55,930 nucleotides of DNA from a virus, in IMG/VR virus record IMGVR_UViG_3300009104_001126, positions 1 through 55,930 of that record; one strand, 5' to 3'. Positions within the stretch are counted from its first letter, which is position 1. The number at the start of each line of letters is the position of its first letter. A program made the position numbers and the translations under genes. Positions 4,952-41,403 of the stretch are shown in pieces. The notes beneath the pieces are model-generated. The model was given only the letters and a program-made list of their open reading frames with translations, searched no databases and was not told the origin of the DNA.

Positions 4952-5887
4952 ATGAAAATTGGAATAATAGGATGTAGTCATAGTGCAGGTGTTTCTGAAA
5001 GTGGACTATTAAAGAAGTCTGGTGGATTTAATGCTTGGAGGGGCTGGCCAAGAGAATTGGCGAAAGCCTATCCAGATCACGAAGTTCATTTATTTGCTTC
5101 TCCTGGTGGAGGACAGAATAATATGGAATCTGCTTTGAGGACATGTCTCATTGAAGATATTGATATGGTGCTTCTTCAATTTACAACACAGCGACAATTA
5201 TATCCAACCCAAATAGATCGATTTTCGAAAAAGAGCGATGGGTCTTTAGATTCATGGTATACCACACAACGAAAAAATAATTTTGTTTTACGGCAACAAA
5301 AAATGAGATCTCTTTCGATAAAGAATTATGTAGTAGAACGTAAATGCGTTATGGTGGGTAACCATTTTGACGCAAGGAATCGAATACAAGAATTAAAAGA
5401 TGTTGGTGTTAATGGATATGAATTACCACAAGTCTTATTAGAGATATTCATCGATAATGAATACTTTAATGAAATGGCTGAAACATTCTATGGCTGTAAT
5501 AAGTTATATAAAAAATTATTTAAACATTTTTATTCTATGTTATGGGTTCCAACACATAGTTATGGACCGAGCCACGGAGATCAATCTGTTGTAGAGATAA
5601 AAGATAAAGTGCCTCTTTTTATGTCTGAATTTCTAACAGGAAAGAATCTTGATAACAAAGTTGATTGGCCTAAAACAATATATGATTGGTTAGTTGAACA
5701 TTGGACCGAAACTCGTGGCTTGAGTTCAGAGGACGCGAAAAGGATGGTCTTTCATGAATATAAAAAATACAAAGGTCATTTAGGAGAAGAATCACAACAA
5801 GAAGTATTATTCAATTATATTTTAAAACATAGACGATTAAGGGAGGCTTTAGATTATGATAAAAAAGAAGGACCGGAAATTATATGA
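4952..5887 (+). CDS. Hypothetical protein, possibly SGNH-like (311 aa)
   Basis: It starts MKIGIIGCSHSAGVSESG, which resembles block I of SGNH-fold proteins with Gly-Cys-Ser in place of Gly-Asp-Ser, followed by a Gly/Asn-rich loop (FASPGGGQNN) near residues 49-58. The second half is helical and charged. No secretion signal is seen. The Asp-to-Cys change and absence of a clear DxxH suggest an atypical or inactive member, or a chance resemblance. The gene directly abuts the oxygenase gene. Confidence 0.5.
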   Translation: MKIGIIGCSHSAGVSESGLLKKSGGFNAWRGWPRELAKAYPDHEVHLFASPGGGQNNMESALRTCLIEDIDMVLLQFTTQRQLYPTQIDRFSKKSDGSLDSWYTTQRKNNFVLRQQKMRSLSIKNYVVERKCVMVGNHFDARNRIQELKDVGVNGYELPQVLLEIFIDNEYFNEMAETFYGCNKLYKKLFKHFYSMLWVPTHSYGPSHGDQSVVEIKDKVPLFMSEFLTGKNLDNKVDWPKTIYDWLVEHWTETRGLSSEDAKRMVFHEYKKYKGHLGEESQQEVLFNYILKHRRLREALDYDKKEGPEII

Positions 5888-5912
5888 TACTTGGAAATAT
5901 AAAAAAGGAGGT

Positions 5913-6353
5913 ATGATGGAATTTAATAACCCAGTGTTTCAGACAATATTAGGATTAGTGATATTTTATATTGGTCTTAAAATGTTTTCTGGTGGAATGA
6001 AGTCAATGGGAAAATTAGAACATTTAGAATATTTTATACATAATCCCTATTGGATGTTTTTTGGAGCAATTGGTTGTACTCTTCTTTGGCAATCAAGTTC
6101 TCTCTCAACAACCGCGATAATCGGATTAGTTGCTTCAGGTGCTTTACCACTACCTTCTGCAATCGCAGCAGTGCTCGGTGCAAATATAGGAACAACAGGA
6201 ACTATATGGTTAGCTGGTATAATGGTTTCTGATGGTATGCCACAGGGAATAACGAAACAAATAGCACTAGTGCATACAGGAGTAAATGCAGCAATGGCAA
6301 TTGCTTTACTTCCATTTTGTCAAGTCATAGCAAGGTTTGTGTCAAAATTTTAA
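5913..6353 (+). CDS. Half-length Na+/Pi cotransporter-like membrane protein
   Basis: Start chosen at ATG 5913 behind a strong AAAGGAGG; longer in-frame codons lie within the previous gene. The 146-aa product is an integral membrane protein with about four hydrophobic segments and two PNaS (NptA/YjbB, SLC34-type) signatures: LLWQSSSLSTTAIIGLVASG (the QSSS substrate motif) and AAVLGANIGTTGT. Full transporters contain two inverted copies of this unit; here only one is present, so a working carrier would need to be a dimer or pair with host subunits. It may raise phosphate uptake during infection of phosphate-poor marine hosts. Family assignment is firm; transport activity is inferred. Confidence 0.8.
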   Translation: MMEFNNPVFQTILGLVIFYIGLKMFSGGMKSMGKLEHLEYFIHNPYWMFFGAIGCTLLWQSSSLSTTAIIGLVASGALPLPSAIAAVLGANIGTTGTIWLAGIMVSDGMPQGITKQIALVHTGVNAAMAIALLPFCQVIARFVSKF

Positions 6354-6377: not shown

Positions 6378-6487
6378 TGGCTCTGGGGGTTGGATTCGAA
6401 CCAACACATCTTTGATCTAGATTTGATCGATCAATCAAAGATAATACGCAAACAACGTACCGCGTCTTCCTGTTTCGCCACCCCAGA
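6378..6487 (-). tRNA. tRNA with asparagine-type identity (anticodon GUU) and an oversized variable arm
   Basis: Reading the - strand from 6487, a full cloverleaf folds: acceptor TCTGGGG/CCCCAGA, U8-G9, a 3-bp D stem GCG/CGC with GG in its loop, anticodon stem GTACG/CGTAT with loop TTGTTTG (anticodon GUU), T arm GTTGG-TTCGAAT-CCAAC, G73 and an encoded CCA. U1-A72, G73 and GUU match known bacterial tRNA-Asn identity. Against this, the D arm looks class II (Leu-like), and the variable region is about 38 nt with a perfect 9-bp stem (ATCTTTGAT/ATCAAAGAT), longer than any ordinary class II arm. Position 37 is U rather than the usual purine. Directly downstream of an AsnRS-like gene. Confidence 0.8.
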
Positions 6488-6505: not shown

Positions 6506-7354
6506 TTAATTGTTCAATGCACTGATGAGTCTGGTTAGTCCTATTCCACCACCGTATCTTGGAAAAAAATCTAAATTTAAAAATTCTTCCAATTCTTTTT
6601 CTACTCTCTCTTCGCCAAATAATTTAAATAATAATTTAGCATATCCTCCGTCAGAAATAGTGTAGAATAGTTCTCTCATTTCCTCTACATCGGCAGATCT
6701 TTCTGCAGATCCAATTGTTTCCATTCCTCCTATAATAACATCACATTTGTTAGCTACATTGCCTTCTTTTTTCATATTCCAAAAGGGGGATGTGGAATAA
6801 GGAAATCGAGTTATAAATCCTACTCCGGTGGGATGTGAATCAGATATCATCTGTTCGTGCTCGTGGTCTAATTCTTCGCAATTAAATTCTGAACACCACT
6901 GGCGATAATCCTTTTCAGGAAACGGTCCAGCAATGCCCCCGACTTCTCCTATCAAACCCAAATGCTTAATCAGATCTCTTTCCATTTGTAACAAGTCTCG
7001 AAAATTACCTGGTGCTTCAAATTCAAACATAGGAAAGATGACTTCGTGTCTTCCTTCAACTATATTTGGTTCTTGTCTATAAGATGTTGAAACACAGAAA
7101 CAACCCGGTAGATCTGGATTGTTGAGTAATTCATATTCGAGCCACATCTGACCAGTTTGAGGAAGTGGCCATATGATATCATTATATGTGTACGTTGCGA
7201 CGGTTGTGGGATCTTCGCAAGCAGCTAATATGGATAATCTGTTTTGGGTATGAACTTCGAGAAAACCTCGGGAATGAAAAAAATCACGGAGACTAACGAC
7301 GACATTGTCAAAATCAGTCGGTGTGATTAGACTAGTCAGGTTGCTCCTTTCCAT
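6506..7354 (-). CDS. Minimal class IIb aminoacyl-tRNA synthetase, AsnRS-like catalytic core
   Basis: The 282-aa product is only a class II catalytic core. Features in order: a motif 1-like segment (HSRGFLEVHTQNRL, residues 27-40, without the invariant proline), LPQTGQMWLEYELL (63-77, like the AsnRS SGQLYLE stretch), motif 2 SYRQE...GRHEVIFPMFEFE (91-113, with Arg93, Glu95, Arg102-His103), GGMETIGSAER (209-219, like the AsnRS G-GEI-GGSQRE region), and motif 3 RYGGGIGLTRL (266-276, Arg275). No N-terminal OB-fold anticodon-binding domain is present. Archaeal AsnA-type asparagine synthetases have a similar truncated core and are the main alternative. The co-directional tRNA 18 bp downstream favours tRNA aminoacylation. 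The start ATG lies behind a late-type promoter. Confidence 0.8.
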   Translation of the reverse strand: MERSNLTSLITPTDFDNVVVSLRDFFHSRGFLEVHTQNRLSILAACEDPTTVATYTYNDIIWPLPQTGQMWLEYELLNNPDLPGCFCVSTSYRQEPNIVEGRHEVIFPMFEFEAPGNFRDLLQMERDLIKHLGLIGEVGGIAGPFPEKDYRQWCSEFNCEELDHEHEQMISDSHPTGVGFITRFPYSTSPFWNMKKEGNVANKCDVIIGGMETIGSAERSADVEEMRELFYTISDGGYAKLLFKLFGEERVEKELEEFLNLDFFPRYGGGIGLTRLISALNN

Positions 7355-14796: not shown

Positions 14797-15196
14797 AATC
14801 AAGTTAAAACAACCCGATGATTTTTTAAAAGTAAAGGAAACATTAACAAGGATAGGTGTAGCTTCAAAGAAAGATAAGATATTATATCAATCTTGTCATA
14901 TTCTCCATAAGCAAGCCAGGTACTATATTGTTCATTTTAAAGAATTGTTTATGTTGGATGGAAAGCCTTCCAACTTTTCGGATAACGATGCAGCGAGAAG
15001 AAATACTATAGTTAATTTATTAGCTGAATGGGATTTAATTGAAAAGGTCGATAATGCTAAAATCGATGATGATAATGTGGTTCCTATTAATCAATTAAAG
15101 ATTATATCTTTCAAAAAGAAAGATGAGTGGGAACTTGTGGCGAAATATAATATAGGTAATAAAAAGAATGACGATGCTAAAATTGAGGGCTCATAA
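14768..15196 (+). CDS. regA: RegA translational repressor
   Basis: The 142-aa product sits directly after gp62 and shows the RegA pattern: a short N-terminal strand (DSLVEIKLKQPDDFLKVKETL), TRIGVASKKDKILYQSCHILHK, YYIVHFKELFMLDGK and RNTIVNLLAEWDL. RegA binds start regions of early mRNAs and blocks ribosome loading, including its own operon in T4. It is about 20 residues longer than T4 RegA (122 aa) at the C-terminus. The end overlaps the dUTPase start by 29 bases. Confidence 0.92.
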   Translation: MSVEIDSLVEIKLKQPDDFLKVKETLTRIGVASKKDKILYQSCHILHKQARYYIVHFKELFMLDGKPSNFSDNDAARRNTIVNLLAEWDLIEKVDNAKIDDDNVVPINQLKIISFKKKDEWELVAKYNIGNKKNDDAKIEGS

Positions 15197-15677
15197 GATA
15201 TATTCTGATGTAAAGCTTCCAACATTTTCAACCCGCGGTTCTGCATGTTTTGATATATGTGCATATTATACACCTGAATTGGGTTATGATATTTGGAATG
15301 ACGCCAGAAAAGATTTTGTTAAAAGACACGACCCTAATATAACAATACATCCTTTTCAAAGAGTCCTAGTACCAACGGGATTAATTTTAGATATCCCCGC
15401 AGGACACTCGGTAAGAATACATCCGAGATCTGGTAATGCAATTAAAAAAGGTTTAAGTTTTATTAATTGTGAAGGAATAGTTGATTCTGATTATATCGAT
15501 CCGTTAATGGTTCCGGTAATAAATTTATCAGATGTTCAGACAATTGTTATAAATAACAATGATCGAATTGCACAGGGTGAATTAATTAAAGATTTAAGTT
15601 ATAATATAGAAGAAATTAGTTCACCTCCCGAACAAAAAACCGACCGTGAAGGTGGTTTTGGGAGTACTGGCGCATGA
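15168..15677 (+). CDS. dut: dUTP diphosphatase (trimeric dUTPase)
   Basis: All five trimeric dUTPase motifs are visible: GSACFDICAY (motif 1), HPRSGNAIKKGL (2), EGIVDSDYID (3), NNDRIAQGEL (4) and DREGGFGSTGA (5, C-terminal P-loop-like lid). The enzyme converts dUTP to dUMP plus pyrophosphate, protecting phage DNA from uracil and feeding ThyX. A roughly 20-residue insert follows motif 1 (YTPELGYDIWNDARKDFVKR), longer than in E. coli Dut. The alternative start at 15174 (MLKLRAHK) is equally possible. Confidence 0.93.
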   Translation: MTMLKLRAHKIYSDVKLPTFSTRGSACFDICAYYTPELGYDIWNDARKDFVKRHDPNITIHPFQRVLVPTGLILDIPAGHSVRIHPRSGNAIKKGLSFINCEGIVDSDYIDPLMVPVINLSDVQTIVINNNDRIAQGELIKDLSYNIEEISSPPEQKTDREGGFGSTGA

Positions 15678-37637: not shown

Positions 37638-38639
37638 ATGAGTTTATATATTGACCACAAATATACCAATTTAATTTCTTCCCGATTATCTCGTTTCGCT
37701 CGCAAGTCCAGAGAATTATATAATTTCAGGTGTCCATTATGTGGAGATTCTCAAAAAAATCAATATAAGGCGAGAGGTTATCTTTATAACAAAAAAAATA
37801 ATTTAATTTTTAAATGTCACAATTGTGGAGCCGGTGGCGCATTAAAATTTTTATTAGATAAAATCGATCCTGTTATATCAAGACAATATTCATTTGAAAA
37901 ATATAAAGAAGAAAATGGAACTCCTATAGAGACAGAACAAAAAGTCCCTATTTTTAGAAAACCCAAATTTACAAAAATAGAAGCACCAAAAATTTCTGAA
38001 TTAGATTCAGATCATCCAGCTGTAAAATTTTGCGATGTAAGAAAGTTACCTAAAGTTCGATATAATGATATGTATTTTGCAGATTGTTTTAAAAGTTGGG
38101 TGAGTAAATATGATACAGAATTAGCAGCGCGGCTAAAAGAAAAAGATCCAAGAATAATAATTCCATTTTTTAATAAAGAGAAGAAGCTAGTAGCCGCACA
38201 GGGGAGAAGTTTAGAAAATAATACATTAAGATATTTTACTATTAAAATAGATAAAGAAGCTCCGAAAATATTTGGTTTAGAAAGAAACGATCCAGCGCAA
38301 TTAACTTATATTGTCGAAGGACCATTTGATAGTATGTTCCTTCCAAATTCTCTTGCAATGGCAGGTAGTGACTTAGATGATGTTAGTATGTTTTATGCAA
38401 GAGACGTCGTTTTTGTGTATGATAATGAACCGAGAAATAATGAAATTGTTCATAAGATTGAAAAATGTATTAAAAAAGGCTTCGCGATTTGCATCTGGCC
38501 CGACACGGTTAAATTTAAAGATATTAATGATATGGTCTTAGGTGATATGGACATTTTGGAAATTATTGATATAATAAATACCAATACATTCCGCGGCCTT
38601 CCCGCAAGATTAAAATTTAACCAGTGGAAAAGAACATGA
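37638..38639 (+). CDS. 61: DNA primase (T4 gp61-like)
   Basis: The 333-aa product has a zinc-binding N-terminus: CPLC (Cys32, Cys35) and CHNC (Cys60, Cys63) around ARGYLYNKKNNLIFK. A Toprim-like catalytic region follows (IVEGPFDSMFLPNSLAMAGS, VFVYDNEPRN, GFAICIWPDTVKFKDINDM). It makes RNA primers on the lagging strand, with helicase gp41. Length is close to T4 gp61 (342 aa). Its stop overlaps the ThyX ATG. Confidence 0.95.
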   Translation: MSLYIDHKYTNLISSRLSRFARKSRELYNFRCPLCGDSQKNQYKARGYLYNKKNNLIFKCHNCGAGGALKFLLDKIDPVISRQYSFEKYKEENGTPIETEQKVPIFRKPKFTKIEAPKISELDSDHPAVKFCDVRKLPKVRYNDMYFADCFKSWVSKYDTELAARLKEKDPRIIIPFFNKEKKLVAAQGRSLENNTLRYFTIKIDKEAPKIFGLERNDPAQLTYIVEGPFDSMFLPNSLAMAGSDLDDVSMFYARDVVFVYDNEPRNNEIVHKIEKCIKKGFAICIWPDTVKFKDINDMVLGDMDILEIIDIINTNTFRGLPARLKFNQWKRT

Positions 38640-39424
38640 ATGAAGAGGTGAAGGTCCATGAATTTGGACTAGTTAGATTATTAGATATTATGGGAAGTGA
38701 CGACGACGTAGTTGATGCAGCACGGATAAGTTACGGTAAAGGTACAAAAAAAGTTAGTGAAACCCGTAATTTAATTCGGTATTTAATGAGACATAAACAC
38801 ACATCACCTTTTGAGATGTGTGAAGTTAAGTTTTATTTAAAATTACCCATCTTTATTATGAGACAAATAGTTCGTCATCGGACGGCGAATTTAAATGAGT
38901 ATTCAGGACGTTATTCAGTAATGAGTGAAGATTTTTATCTTCCTCATGATGACGATATTCAAAAGCAATCAACCCAAAACAATCAGGGTAGGGGTGAAGA
39001 AATTGAACAAAAAGGCCTTGTTAAATTTGAATTCAATCGCATATATGATAATGCCATTCATTCCTATCATAATTTATTAGAACTTGATGTAGCTCGAGAA
39101 TTATCTCGTTCTGTACTCCCTGTAGGGAATTACACTGAAGTTATATGGAAAATTGATCTACATAATTTTTTCCATTTTTGTAAATTAAGAACAGATAAAC
39201 ACGCGCAGAAAGAAATTCGAGATTATGCAGAGGCAATGTATAAATTGATCAAACCCGAATTTCCCTTATGCTGTGAAGCTTACGAAGATTATATTCAAAA
39301 TGGGGTGATGTTTTCTGCTCAGGAAATGAAAATAATTAAAAGAGAATTATCTGGAAGAAGTTGGTCATTAGATCAAGTATTATCAAAACGAGAACAAAAC
39401 GAATTTTTAGAAAAACTACTTTAG
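38636..39424 (+). CDS. thyX: Flavin-dependent thymidylate synthase (ThyX)
   Basis: ATG 38636 overlaps the primase stop (ATGA); an upstream in-frame GTG (38624) is possible. The 262-aa product carries the ThyX signature RHRTANLNEYSGRYS (residues 80-94, with Arg80, Arg82, Ser90 and Arg92) and a preceding HTSPFEMCEVKFYLKLP. It makes dTMP from dUMP using FAD, NADPH and methylene-tetrahydrofolate. It follows dUTPase in logic: dUMP from Dut feeds this enzyme. Confidence 0.96.
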   Translation: MNEEVKVHEFGLVRLLDIMGSDDDVVDAARISYGKGTKKVSETRNLIRYLMRHKHTSPFEMCEVKFYLKLPIFIMRQIVRHRTANLNEYSGRYSVMSEDFYLPHDDDIQKQSTQNNQGRGEEIEQKGLVKFEFNRIYDNAIHSYHNLLELDVARELSRSVLPVGNYTEVIWKIDLHNFFHFCKLRTDKHAQKEIRDYAEAMYKLIKPEFPLCCEAYEDYIQNGVMFSAQEMKIIKRELSGRSWSLDQVLSKREQNEFLEKLL

Positions 39425-39438
39425 CATAAGGAACATGA

Positions 39439-41403
39439 ATGAATTTACCCACAGAATATCAATCATTTATCCATCTTTCAAGATACGCCAGATGGAGATA
39501 TGATGCAGAGAGAAGAGAAAATTGGTCTGAAACAATTGGTAGATATTTTGATTTTTTTAAGGAAGACCTAAAAGAAAAATGTAGTTATGAATTAGTTGAA
39601 GATATTAGAAAAGAATTAGAAGAATCGGTTTTAAATTTAGAGGTCATGCCGTCTATGAGATGCTTAATGACAGCCGGCGATCCTCTCAAAAAAGAAAATG
39701 TGGCTGGGTATAATTGTTCATATTTAAAATGTGATAATCAAAGAACGTTTGATGAAATCATGTATATTTTAATGAACGGAACTGGTGTGGGATTTTCCGT
39801 TGAAGAAAAATATACCAAACAAATGCCAACTATTGCTGAAGAATTTTATCCAACAGATACTACTATTGTAGTTGCGGATAGTAAATTAGGTTGGTGCAAA
39901 GCTTATAAAGAATTAGTATCACTATTATATCAAGGACTTATTCCTAAATGGGATGTGACCAGAGTTCGACCAGCAGGTGCACCATTAAAAACTTTTGGAG
40001 GACGAGCTTCAGGTCCAGATCCATTAGTAGATTTATTTAATTTTGTAACAGGAATAATTTCAAATGCCGCGGGAAGAAAACTCAAACCAATCGAATGTCA
40101 TGACATTATATGTAAGACTGCAGAAGTGGTTGTGGTCGGCGGTGTACGTCGCTCTGCTCTTATTAGTCTCAGTGATCTTAATGATAGAGAGATGCGATTC
40201 GCAAAGCACGGAGAATGGTATAAGTTTAATGTGCAACGTGCTCTAGCAAATAATTCCGTTAATTATAAAGAACGGCCAGATATTGGAACTTTTATGAGAG
40301 AATGGTTATCTCTTTATGATTCAAAGTCTGGTGAACGTGGAATATATAATGGAAATTCGGCTCAACGTCAAGTACAAAAGTTAAATGAAAGGGAACAAGA
40401 TGGAAACGGAAATCATATACGAAGACGAATTGCCAGAGATGATTTTGGTACAAATCCGTGCAGCGAGATCATTTTACGGTCCCGAGAGTTTTGCAACTTA
40501 TCTGAAGTCGTTGTCCGAGGACGGGACACTCGCGAGTCTCTTAAAAGCAAAGTGCGCAATGCAACCATTCTTGGAACGTTCCAATCTACCCTTACCAACT
40601 TCAAATACATTACCAGAGAGTGGTCCAATAATTGTAGAGAAGAACGACTTTTGGGAGTTTCTCTTACCGGAATAATGGATAATGAATTAACAAATGGTAA
40701 AAAAGGAAAAGATAAAACTGGTAAGCTTTTAGAGGAACTTAGAAATGTTGCTATTGAAACAAATAAAGAATGGGCTGAAAAACTTGGTATTCCGAGATCA
40801 GCCGCCATTACGTGTGTCAAACCTAGTGGTACTGTATCTCAGCTTGTTGATAGTGCTTCTGGTATTCATGCCCGTCATAATCCTTATTATATTAGGACAG
40901 TAAGAGCAGATAATAAAGATCCATTGTGTAGGTTTATGAAAGACGCAGGTTTTCCTAATGAGCCCGATGTAACCAAACCAACACATACAACTGTGTTTTC
41001 ATTTCCTATGCAGAGCCCAAAGAACGCAGTATTCAGACAAGATATGACTGCTATTGAACAACTTGAATTGTGGAAAATTTATCAAGATCATTGGTGTGAA
41101 CATAAGCCTTCTATTACAGTATCAGTTAAAGAGCATGAATGGATGGGCGTAGGTAATTGGGTATGGGATAATTTTAATAACATTAGTGGCATTTCATTTT
41201 TACCTTTTAGTGAACATACATATCAACAAGCACCTTATCAAGATTGTGAAGAAAAAGAATATAAAGAATTATTAGCAAAGATGCCAAAAAATGTAATGTG
41301 GGATAAATTAAGTGATTATGAAAAAGAAGATCATACAGCCGGTGCGCAAAATGCAGCATGTGGTGCAGATGGTGGTGGCTGTGAAGTTGTAGATTTGGTT
41401 TAA
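39439..41403 (+). CDS. nrdJ: Class II (adenosylcobalamin-dependent) ribonucleotide reductase, monomeric type
   Basis: The 654-aa product matches the monomeric B12-dependent ribonucleoside-triphosphate reductase group. Visible features: GYNCSYLKC (Cys93, candidate redox Cys), GTGVGFSVEE, VRRSALISLSDL, the active-site N-x-C-x-E as TNPCSEIIL (about 338-346), REFCNLSEVV (second redox Cys), KPSGTVSQLVDSASGIHARH, and the C-terminal CGADGGGCE pair that re-reduces the active site. It converts ribonucleotides to deoxynucleotides without oxygen. Its need for cobalamin fits the CobS/CobT-like genes earlier in the window. Slightly shorter than the lactobacillus enzyme (739 aa). Confidence 0.93.
   Translation: MNLPTEYQSFIHLSRYARWRYDAERRENWSETIGRYFDFFKEDLKEKCSYELVEDIRKELEESVLNLEVMPSMRCLMTAGDPLKKENVAGYNCSYLKCDNQRTFDEIMYILMNGTGVGFSVEEKYTKQMPTIAEEFYPTDTTIVVADSKLGWCKAYKELVSLLYQGLIPKWDVTRVRPAGAPLKTFGGRASGPDPLVDLFNFVTGIISNAAGRKLKPIECHDIICKTAEVVVVGGVRRSALISLSDLNDREMRFAKHGEWYKFNVQRALANNSVNYKERPDIGTFMREWLSLYDSKSGERGIYNGNSAQRQVQKLNEREQDGNGNHIRRRIARDDFGTNPCSEIILRSREFCNLSEVVVRGRDTRESLKSKVRNATILGTFQSTLTNFKYITREWSNNCREERLLGVSLTGIMDNELTNGKKGKDKTGKLLEELRNVAIETNKEWAEKLGIPRSAAITCVKPSGTVSQLVDSASGIHARHNPYYIRTVRADNKDPLCRFMKDAGFPNEPDVTKPTHTTVFSFPMQSPKNAVFRQDMTAIEQLELWKIYQDHWCEHKPSITVSVKEHEWMGVGNWVWDNFNNISGISFLPFSEHTYQQAPYQDCEEKEYKELLAKMPKNVMWDKLSDYEKEDHTAGAQNAACGADGGGCEVVDLV

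Follow-up and report, generated by a model that had tools for sequence, protein, structure and literature searches.

Relatives of the locus

Amino acids are known to be donated by tRNA outside translation in tetrapyrrole synthesis, where the donor is tRNA-Glu, and in the staphylococcal cell wall, where it is a non-proteinogenic tRNA-Gly. These known donors feed products other than pyrimidines, and to our knowledge no amino-acid-donor tRNA for pyrimidines has been described. The catalytic domain of a synthetase can also stand alone and turn metabolic, as in archaeal asparagine synthetase A (PRK06462), a paralog of AsnRS. More closely related to the locus studied here is a gene pair in the cyanophages P-SSM2, P-SSM5, and P-SSM7, the members of which are annotated separately as 'tRNA ligase' (T4-GC 194) and tRNA-Asn. 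In P-SSM2, this tRNA is the sole tRNA counted (PMC3037559, Table 1), and the accessible part of that article tabulates the gene and discusses neither the pair nor its function. A literature search returned nothing relevant on the pair or on a synthetase-like pyrimidine enzyme, a weak result given that few subscription journals were covered.

The same pair was found in a viral sequence of 55,930 nucleotides (IMG/VR record IMGVR_UViG_3300009104_001126, positions 1 to 55,930; this whole stretch is hereafter called the window). Here, a gene for a small AsnRS-like protein, which we term mini-RS, lies upstream of a type II-like tRNA gene on the same strand, with 18 nt between the mini-RS stop codon and the tRNA (Table 1). 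Both genes are on the minus strand, whereas almost all other genes in the window are on the plus strand. The mini-RS proteins of the three cyanophages are 60%–61% identical to that of the window and are likewise followed directly by the tRNA, although, unlike in the window, CCA is not encoded.

Table 1. Positions in the window of the tRNA, its parts, its partner gene, and other genes mentioned in the text
Feature	Position	Strand	Details and evidence
tRNA gene, anticodon GUU, type II-like, G73, U1-A72	6381..6487	-	RF00005, 38.3 bits; homolog-built model, 84 bits (window tRNA among the model-building sequences); parse
Encoded CCA end	6378..6380	-	Sequence
Anticodon GUU	6451..6453	-	U37 = 6450, U33 = 6454; sequence
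Variable region, 38 nt	6406..6443	-	Stem arms 6434-6442 and 6408-6416 (9 bp), loop 17 nt; sequence; homologs differ in stem sequence but retain the pairing
mini-RS, 282 aa, AsnRS-like class II catalytic domain, anticodon-binding domain absent	6506..7354	-	PF00152, 6e-17; PHROG 29758, 1e-111; AlphaFold pLDDT 91; human AsnRS Z 27.2
Small membrane protein resembling half of a Na/Pi cotransporter	5856..6353		By eye; no PHROG match
dUTPase-like ORF	15168..15677		By eye
ThyX-like ORF	38624..39424		By eye
Ribonucleotide reductase-like ORF	39439..41403		By eye

The tRNA gene in the window

The tRNA gene in the window is real and beyond chance. When searched alone, the stretch scored 38.3 bits against Rfam RF00005 (gathering threshold of 29) with a complete cloverleaf, and its fold had a z-score of -2.56 relative to dinucleotide shuffles. 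A covariance model built from homologs, with the window tRNA itself among the model-building sequences, gave 84 bits (E = 1.9e-19). Neither ARAGORN nor a fast whole-window Rfam scan called the gene, and the long variable arm is probably the cause of both misses.

A sequence-only reading of this DNA had described a tRNA with an Asn anticodon, an extreme class II-like variable arm, a 3-bp D stem, U37 beside GUU, and intact invariant bases, and the parse bears this anatomy out. The acceptor (UCUGGGG/CCCCAGA, 7 bp, with U1-A72) is followed by G73 and the encoded CCA. U8 is kept, the D stem is GCG/CGC (3 bp), and the D loop, AAACAGGAAGA, includes A14 and G18G19. The anticodon stem (GUACG/CGUAU) closes a loop, UUGUUUG, that comprises U33, GUU, and U37, and the T arm is GUUGG UUCGAAU CCAAC. 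Between the anticodon and T arms, the 38-nt variable region reads U-AUCUUUGAU-(17 nt)-AUCAAAGAU-GU and forms a perfect 9-bp stem. A Sec-type 8-bp acceptor was also considered; its eighth pair would join the base preceding the gene to G73, and a parse into 7 acceptor pairs followed by G73 is simpler. In terms of identity, GUU and G73 are as expected of tRNA-Asn, whereas the variable loop is not the short one of class I, and the t6A position of the anticodon loop has U37 instead of A37. Both the D arm and the long variable arm are similar to those of bacterial tRNA-Leu, which scores up to 69 bits with the family-built model, although the phage tRNA differs in having G73 instead of A73 and the anticodon GUU. 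A tRNA-Leu with merely an altered anticodon is excluded by G73 and U1-A72.

mini-RS is an AsnRS-like catalytic domain

The protein encoded upstream of the tRNA matches Pfam tRNA-synt_2 (PF00152) and a PHROG to which no function is assigned (Table 1). Human AsnRS was the top structural match (2.4 Å over 250 residues) to an AlphaFold model computed from 65 homologs, followed by AspRS, and archaeal asparagine synthetase A was matched with a Z of about 24. The alignment to human AsnRS spans residues 227–529, that is, the catalytic domain alone, and the N-terminal anticodon-binding domain is absent. Like AsnRS (class IIb), mini-RS has class II motifs 2 and 3 and an Asn-type pocket; unlike AsnRS, it has Gln for Pro in motif 1 and TR for ER in motif 3. 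The pocket is composed of TGQxxxE and an Arg in the GGxxR strand, rather than the SPQxxKQ of AspRS, and Q69, E73, and R219 are invariant in the 65 homologs (G68 nearly so). AspRS-like specificity is not favored, because the pocket lacks the KQ signature. Against the NCBIfam families AsnRS, AspRS, and asparagine synthetase A, mini-RS scored far under the cut-off each time (e.g., 27.5 bits for AsnRS TIGR00457, cut-off 342.6; 19 bits for asparagine synthetase A PRK06462, cut-off 389). Its genomic context also sets it apart from archaeal asparagine synthetase A: phage mini-RS is linked to a tRNA, and cellular mini-RS to pyrimidine genes. Among the residues that split phage from cellular mini-RS, no active-site difference was seen.

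Conservation of the pair in phages

We assembled 147 distinct phage mini-RS proteins from viral contigs and a phage collection, many of the loci being metagenomic fragments, and tested pairing on the 132 distinct phage loci for which 400 nt or more of sequence downstream was available. A paired tRNA was present at no fewer than 121 of these (115 identified by a strict parser and 6 more by the covariance model), mostly starting 5 to 12 nt past the mini-RS stop codon, although up to 227 nt past it in some loci. The tRNA is the main neighbor shared by phage mini-RS genes, any protein neighbor being found at 19 or fewer of the 147 loci. Because the pair is conserved in this way, comparison across loci shows the tRNA and mini-RS to be one functional unit in marine T4-like phages.

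The T4-like phage mini-RS proteins group in one clade that lies within the cellular homologs. A few huge-phage copies fall elsewhere on the tree, and the tRNA was apparently gained once, at the base of the T4-like clade. No paired tRNA was found in the available sequence of a few phage loci (e.g., L035, L047, L060, and the huge phages L085 and L086). Diverged mini-RS proteins without a paired tRNA, placed outside the T4-like clade, are encoded by these two huge phages (735 and 484 kb, respectively) and by L168. A search with the L086 protein as query yielded no further loci.

What the tRNA family keeps and loses

In bacteria, the elements for Asn charging are the anticodon and G73, and U1-A72 is the element that permits amidation of Asp-tRNA-Asn (PMC9976931). 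Across 108 distinct tRNAs from phage loci, G73 was found in all, U1-A72 in 107, G34 and U35 in all, and U36 in 106, the remaining two having C36 (i.e., 106 GUU and 2 GUC anticodons). Compared with this, U33 was kept in only 80 (lost in 28), U37 occurred in 90, and A37 in 11 (absent from 97), whereas other tRNAs at the same loci, used as a control, had U33 in 64 of 65 cases and a purine at position 37 in 63 of 65. On a tree of 123 loci, changes numbered at least 19 at position 33 and at least 17 at position 37, relative to two at position 36 and zero at positions 34 and 35. Since the identity elements are fixed and U33 and purine-37 were lost many times, the substitution pattern shows a family constrained for Asn loading and, on this comparison, without a hold from ribosomal decoding. 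The sequence-only reading had overlooked both the family-wide loss of U33 and A37 and the partner gene just upstream, each of which points away from ordinary decoding. The two paired tRNAs with GUC, an Asp anticodon (L065 and L178), retain U1-A72 and G73; such variants would presumably be chargeable by AspRS and, in translation, would misread Asp codons.

Structural bases are retained across the 108 tRNAs, and all five helices are kept in the homolog alignment (97.6% of cells paired, with two-sided changes at 22 of 24 pairs). A decayed tRNA pseudogene, which the earlier reading had doubted, is excluded: all helices are retained with compensatory changes, and the fold, G73, U1-A72, and GUU are kept across the 108 distinct homologs. 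The variable region is 13–39 nt long in 102 of the 108 and 5–7 nt in the other 6, and its stem, represented by 64 distinct sequences, averages 6.5 bp compared with 3.6 bp in shuffles. The conserved, compensated pairing of the variable arm that the sequence-only reading had named as a check was thus recovered, but the arm did not hold up as the defining trait of this tRNA, as homolog lengths range from 5 to 39 nt. Paired, yet unconstrained in sequence and length, it is unlikely to be a recognition element.

Association with pyrimidine genes

Several phage loci place mini-RS and its tRNA among genes of pyrimidine synthesis. L374 and L375 have the order DHODH–mini-RS–tRNA–OPRT, all on the same strand, L113 and L350–L354 have DHODH–mini-RS–tRNA, and L044/L360 has OMPDC…OPRT–mini-RS–tRNA. 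Of the 19 DHODH loci and 9 OMPDC loci that these queries found in phages, 7 and 2, respectively, have mini-RS within 8 kb. DHODH, OMPDC, and OPRT are absent near mini-RS at most phage loci, and none was found in the 55.9-kb window fragment.

Cellular homologs of mini-RS occur in CPR bacteria, Bacteroidota, Pasteurella atlantica, Midichloriaceae, and others. OPRT/OMPDC or DHODH is located near mini-RS at 26 genome-contig loci, or 24 cellular loci once the phage-like contigs L087 and L113 are subtracted. These homologs have no adjacent partner tRNA, and no phage-like partner tRNA was found in 13 cellular genomes, in each of which the best model match fetched was tRNA-Leu or, in one genome, tRNA-Ser. 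The same 13 genomes, many of which are MAGs of parasitic lineages, small and possibly incomplete, in which single absences are weak evidence, contained CarA in 1, PyrB in 1, PyrC in 0, and DHODH in 9 when counted above family cut-offs; an amidohydrolase related to PyrC, under the PyrC cut-off, was present in 3. Parasitic lineages with small genomes often have no pyrimidine genes. In the complete genome of Pasteurella atlantica (G001), mini-RS, OMPDC, a phosphoribosyltransferase, and DHODH adjoin one another, and none of CarA, PyrB, and PyrC was detected above cut-off. Cellular mini-RS (L165, L107, L108, L163, and about 20 others) is therefore a candidate for a missing pyrimidine-synthesis enzyme, without any phage tRNA.

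A putative Asn carrier for pyrimidine synthesis

We tentatively favor, with somewhat less than even confidence, the explanation that the phage tRNA carries Asn not for the ribosome but for a pyrimidine route independent of carbamoyl phosphate, and that it would thus, like the known amino-acid donors, deliver an amino acid to metabolism. Charging by host enzymes, either AsnRS or a non-discriminating AspRS together with GatCAB, is probable because GUU and G73 are Asn charging elements and U1-A72 is an amidation element. The host would also be expected to charge the tRNA because mini-RS has no anticodon-reading domain and the ribosome seems not to impose a conserved anticodon. mini-RS, judging by its pocket, would bind Asn and ATP. 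As decoding needs are not binding on the tRNA, mini-RS would likely take the asparagine it carries, whether on the tRNA or after release, into a pyrimidine-forming reaction away from the ribosome. Of the six atoms in the dihydroorotate ring, Asn could supply five (N1, C6, C5, C4, and N3), the C2 carbonyl being the one that is missing. A CO2-derived carbonyl and ATP might then close the ring, by which CarAB, PyrB, and PyrC would be bypassed, and UMP could be completed by the DHODH, OPRT, and OMPDC of host or phage. It is doubtful that the reaction takes exactly this form, with an AsnRS-derived enzyme making dihydroorotate from CO2, ATP, and Asn carried by the non-decoding phage tRNA (in cells, by ordinary tRNA-Asn) and standing in for carbamoyl-phosphate synthetase, aspartate carbamoyltransferase, and dihydroorotase. 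We know of no precedent for such ring-closing chemistry. Further points count against a carrier role in pyrimidine synthesis: most phage loci, that of the window among them, show none of the three pyrimidine genes nearby; the gene absences in cells come largely from small MAGs of lineages in which such losses are frequent; cellular mini-RS has no dedicated tRNA, and hence the reaction may not require one; and the tRNA of the window keeps U33 and could thus decode.

The chief rival to a carrier role is an orthogonal translation pair, in which mini-RS would be a phage AsnRS that charges the tRNA via G73 and U1-A72 in the acceptor end, and the tRNA would read AAC and AAU, keeping Asn-tRNA beyond the reach of host enzymes or tRNA-cleaving defenses. 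This is consistent with the AsnRS-like fold and Asn-type pocket, the strict adjacency of the two genes, the retention of GUU, and the presence of the tRNA as the only one counted in P-SSM2 (PMC3037559, Table 1). We nonetheless consider it somewhat unlikely, as it accounts for adjacency and GUU but not for the losses at U33 and A37, which set the family apart from neighboring phage tRNAs, for the GUC variants, which would place Asn at Asp codons, or for the pyrimidine operons that hold cellular homologs and several phage copies. Moreover, no active-site difference was seen relative to cellular homologs that have no tRNA partner.

Alternatively, mini-RS could be a metabolic enzyme that makes asparagine or dihydroorotate without a tRNA, and the tRNA beside it an unrelated passenger that aids phage codon use. 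Cellular homologs that function without a linked tRNA would fit such an arrangement, as would the few phage loci noted above with no such tRNA in the available sequence. It appears improbable, however, given that nearly all testable loci retain one tRNA type beside mini-RS despite varied genome positions and neighbors, and that a decoding passenger would be expected to keep U33 and purine-37. Some synthetases bind their own mRNA, and a tRNA-like fold in the mini-RS transcript, bound by mini-RS or a host synthetase, might in the same manner control expression or processing. The usually short spacing after the mini-RS stop codon agrees with a cis-acting structure of this kind, but the wider spacing in some loci does not, and the full tRNA anatomy, including the T loop, the acceptor, and a CCA or CCA-addable G73 end, makes it very improbable.

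If the tRNA is an Asn carrier, pyrimidines would join the very few primary metabolites derived from aminoacyl-tRNA, and the pair would explain a possible bypass, by abundant marine phages, of the feedback-regulated first steps of pyrimidine synthesis. The cellular homologs turn the question of a possible route to UMP in genomes without CarAB, PyrB, and PyrC into one that can be tested directly on a single small enzyme. If translation were instead the function, a compact synthetase–tRNA pair present across at least 120 distinct phage loci would be useful for orthogonal translation.

Other genes near mini-RS and in the window

The gene for the small membrane protein (Table 1) is convergent with the tRNA in the window, and its relatives recur near mini-RS in 18 loci. 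In CPR bacteria, mini-RS has a neighbor resembling dihydrouridine synthase by eye (a truncated piece without a Pfam match) at ten loci (L092, L093, L095, L101, L102, L110, L111, L121, L129, and L140), and a DnaX-like gene is found near mini-RS at eleven. The dUTPase-like, ThyX-like, and ribonucleotide reductase-like ORFs of the window, all recognized by eye, suggest that this phage invests in nucleotide metabolism.
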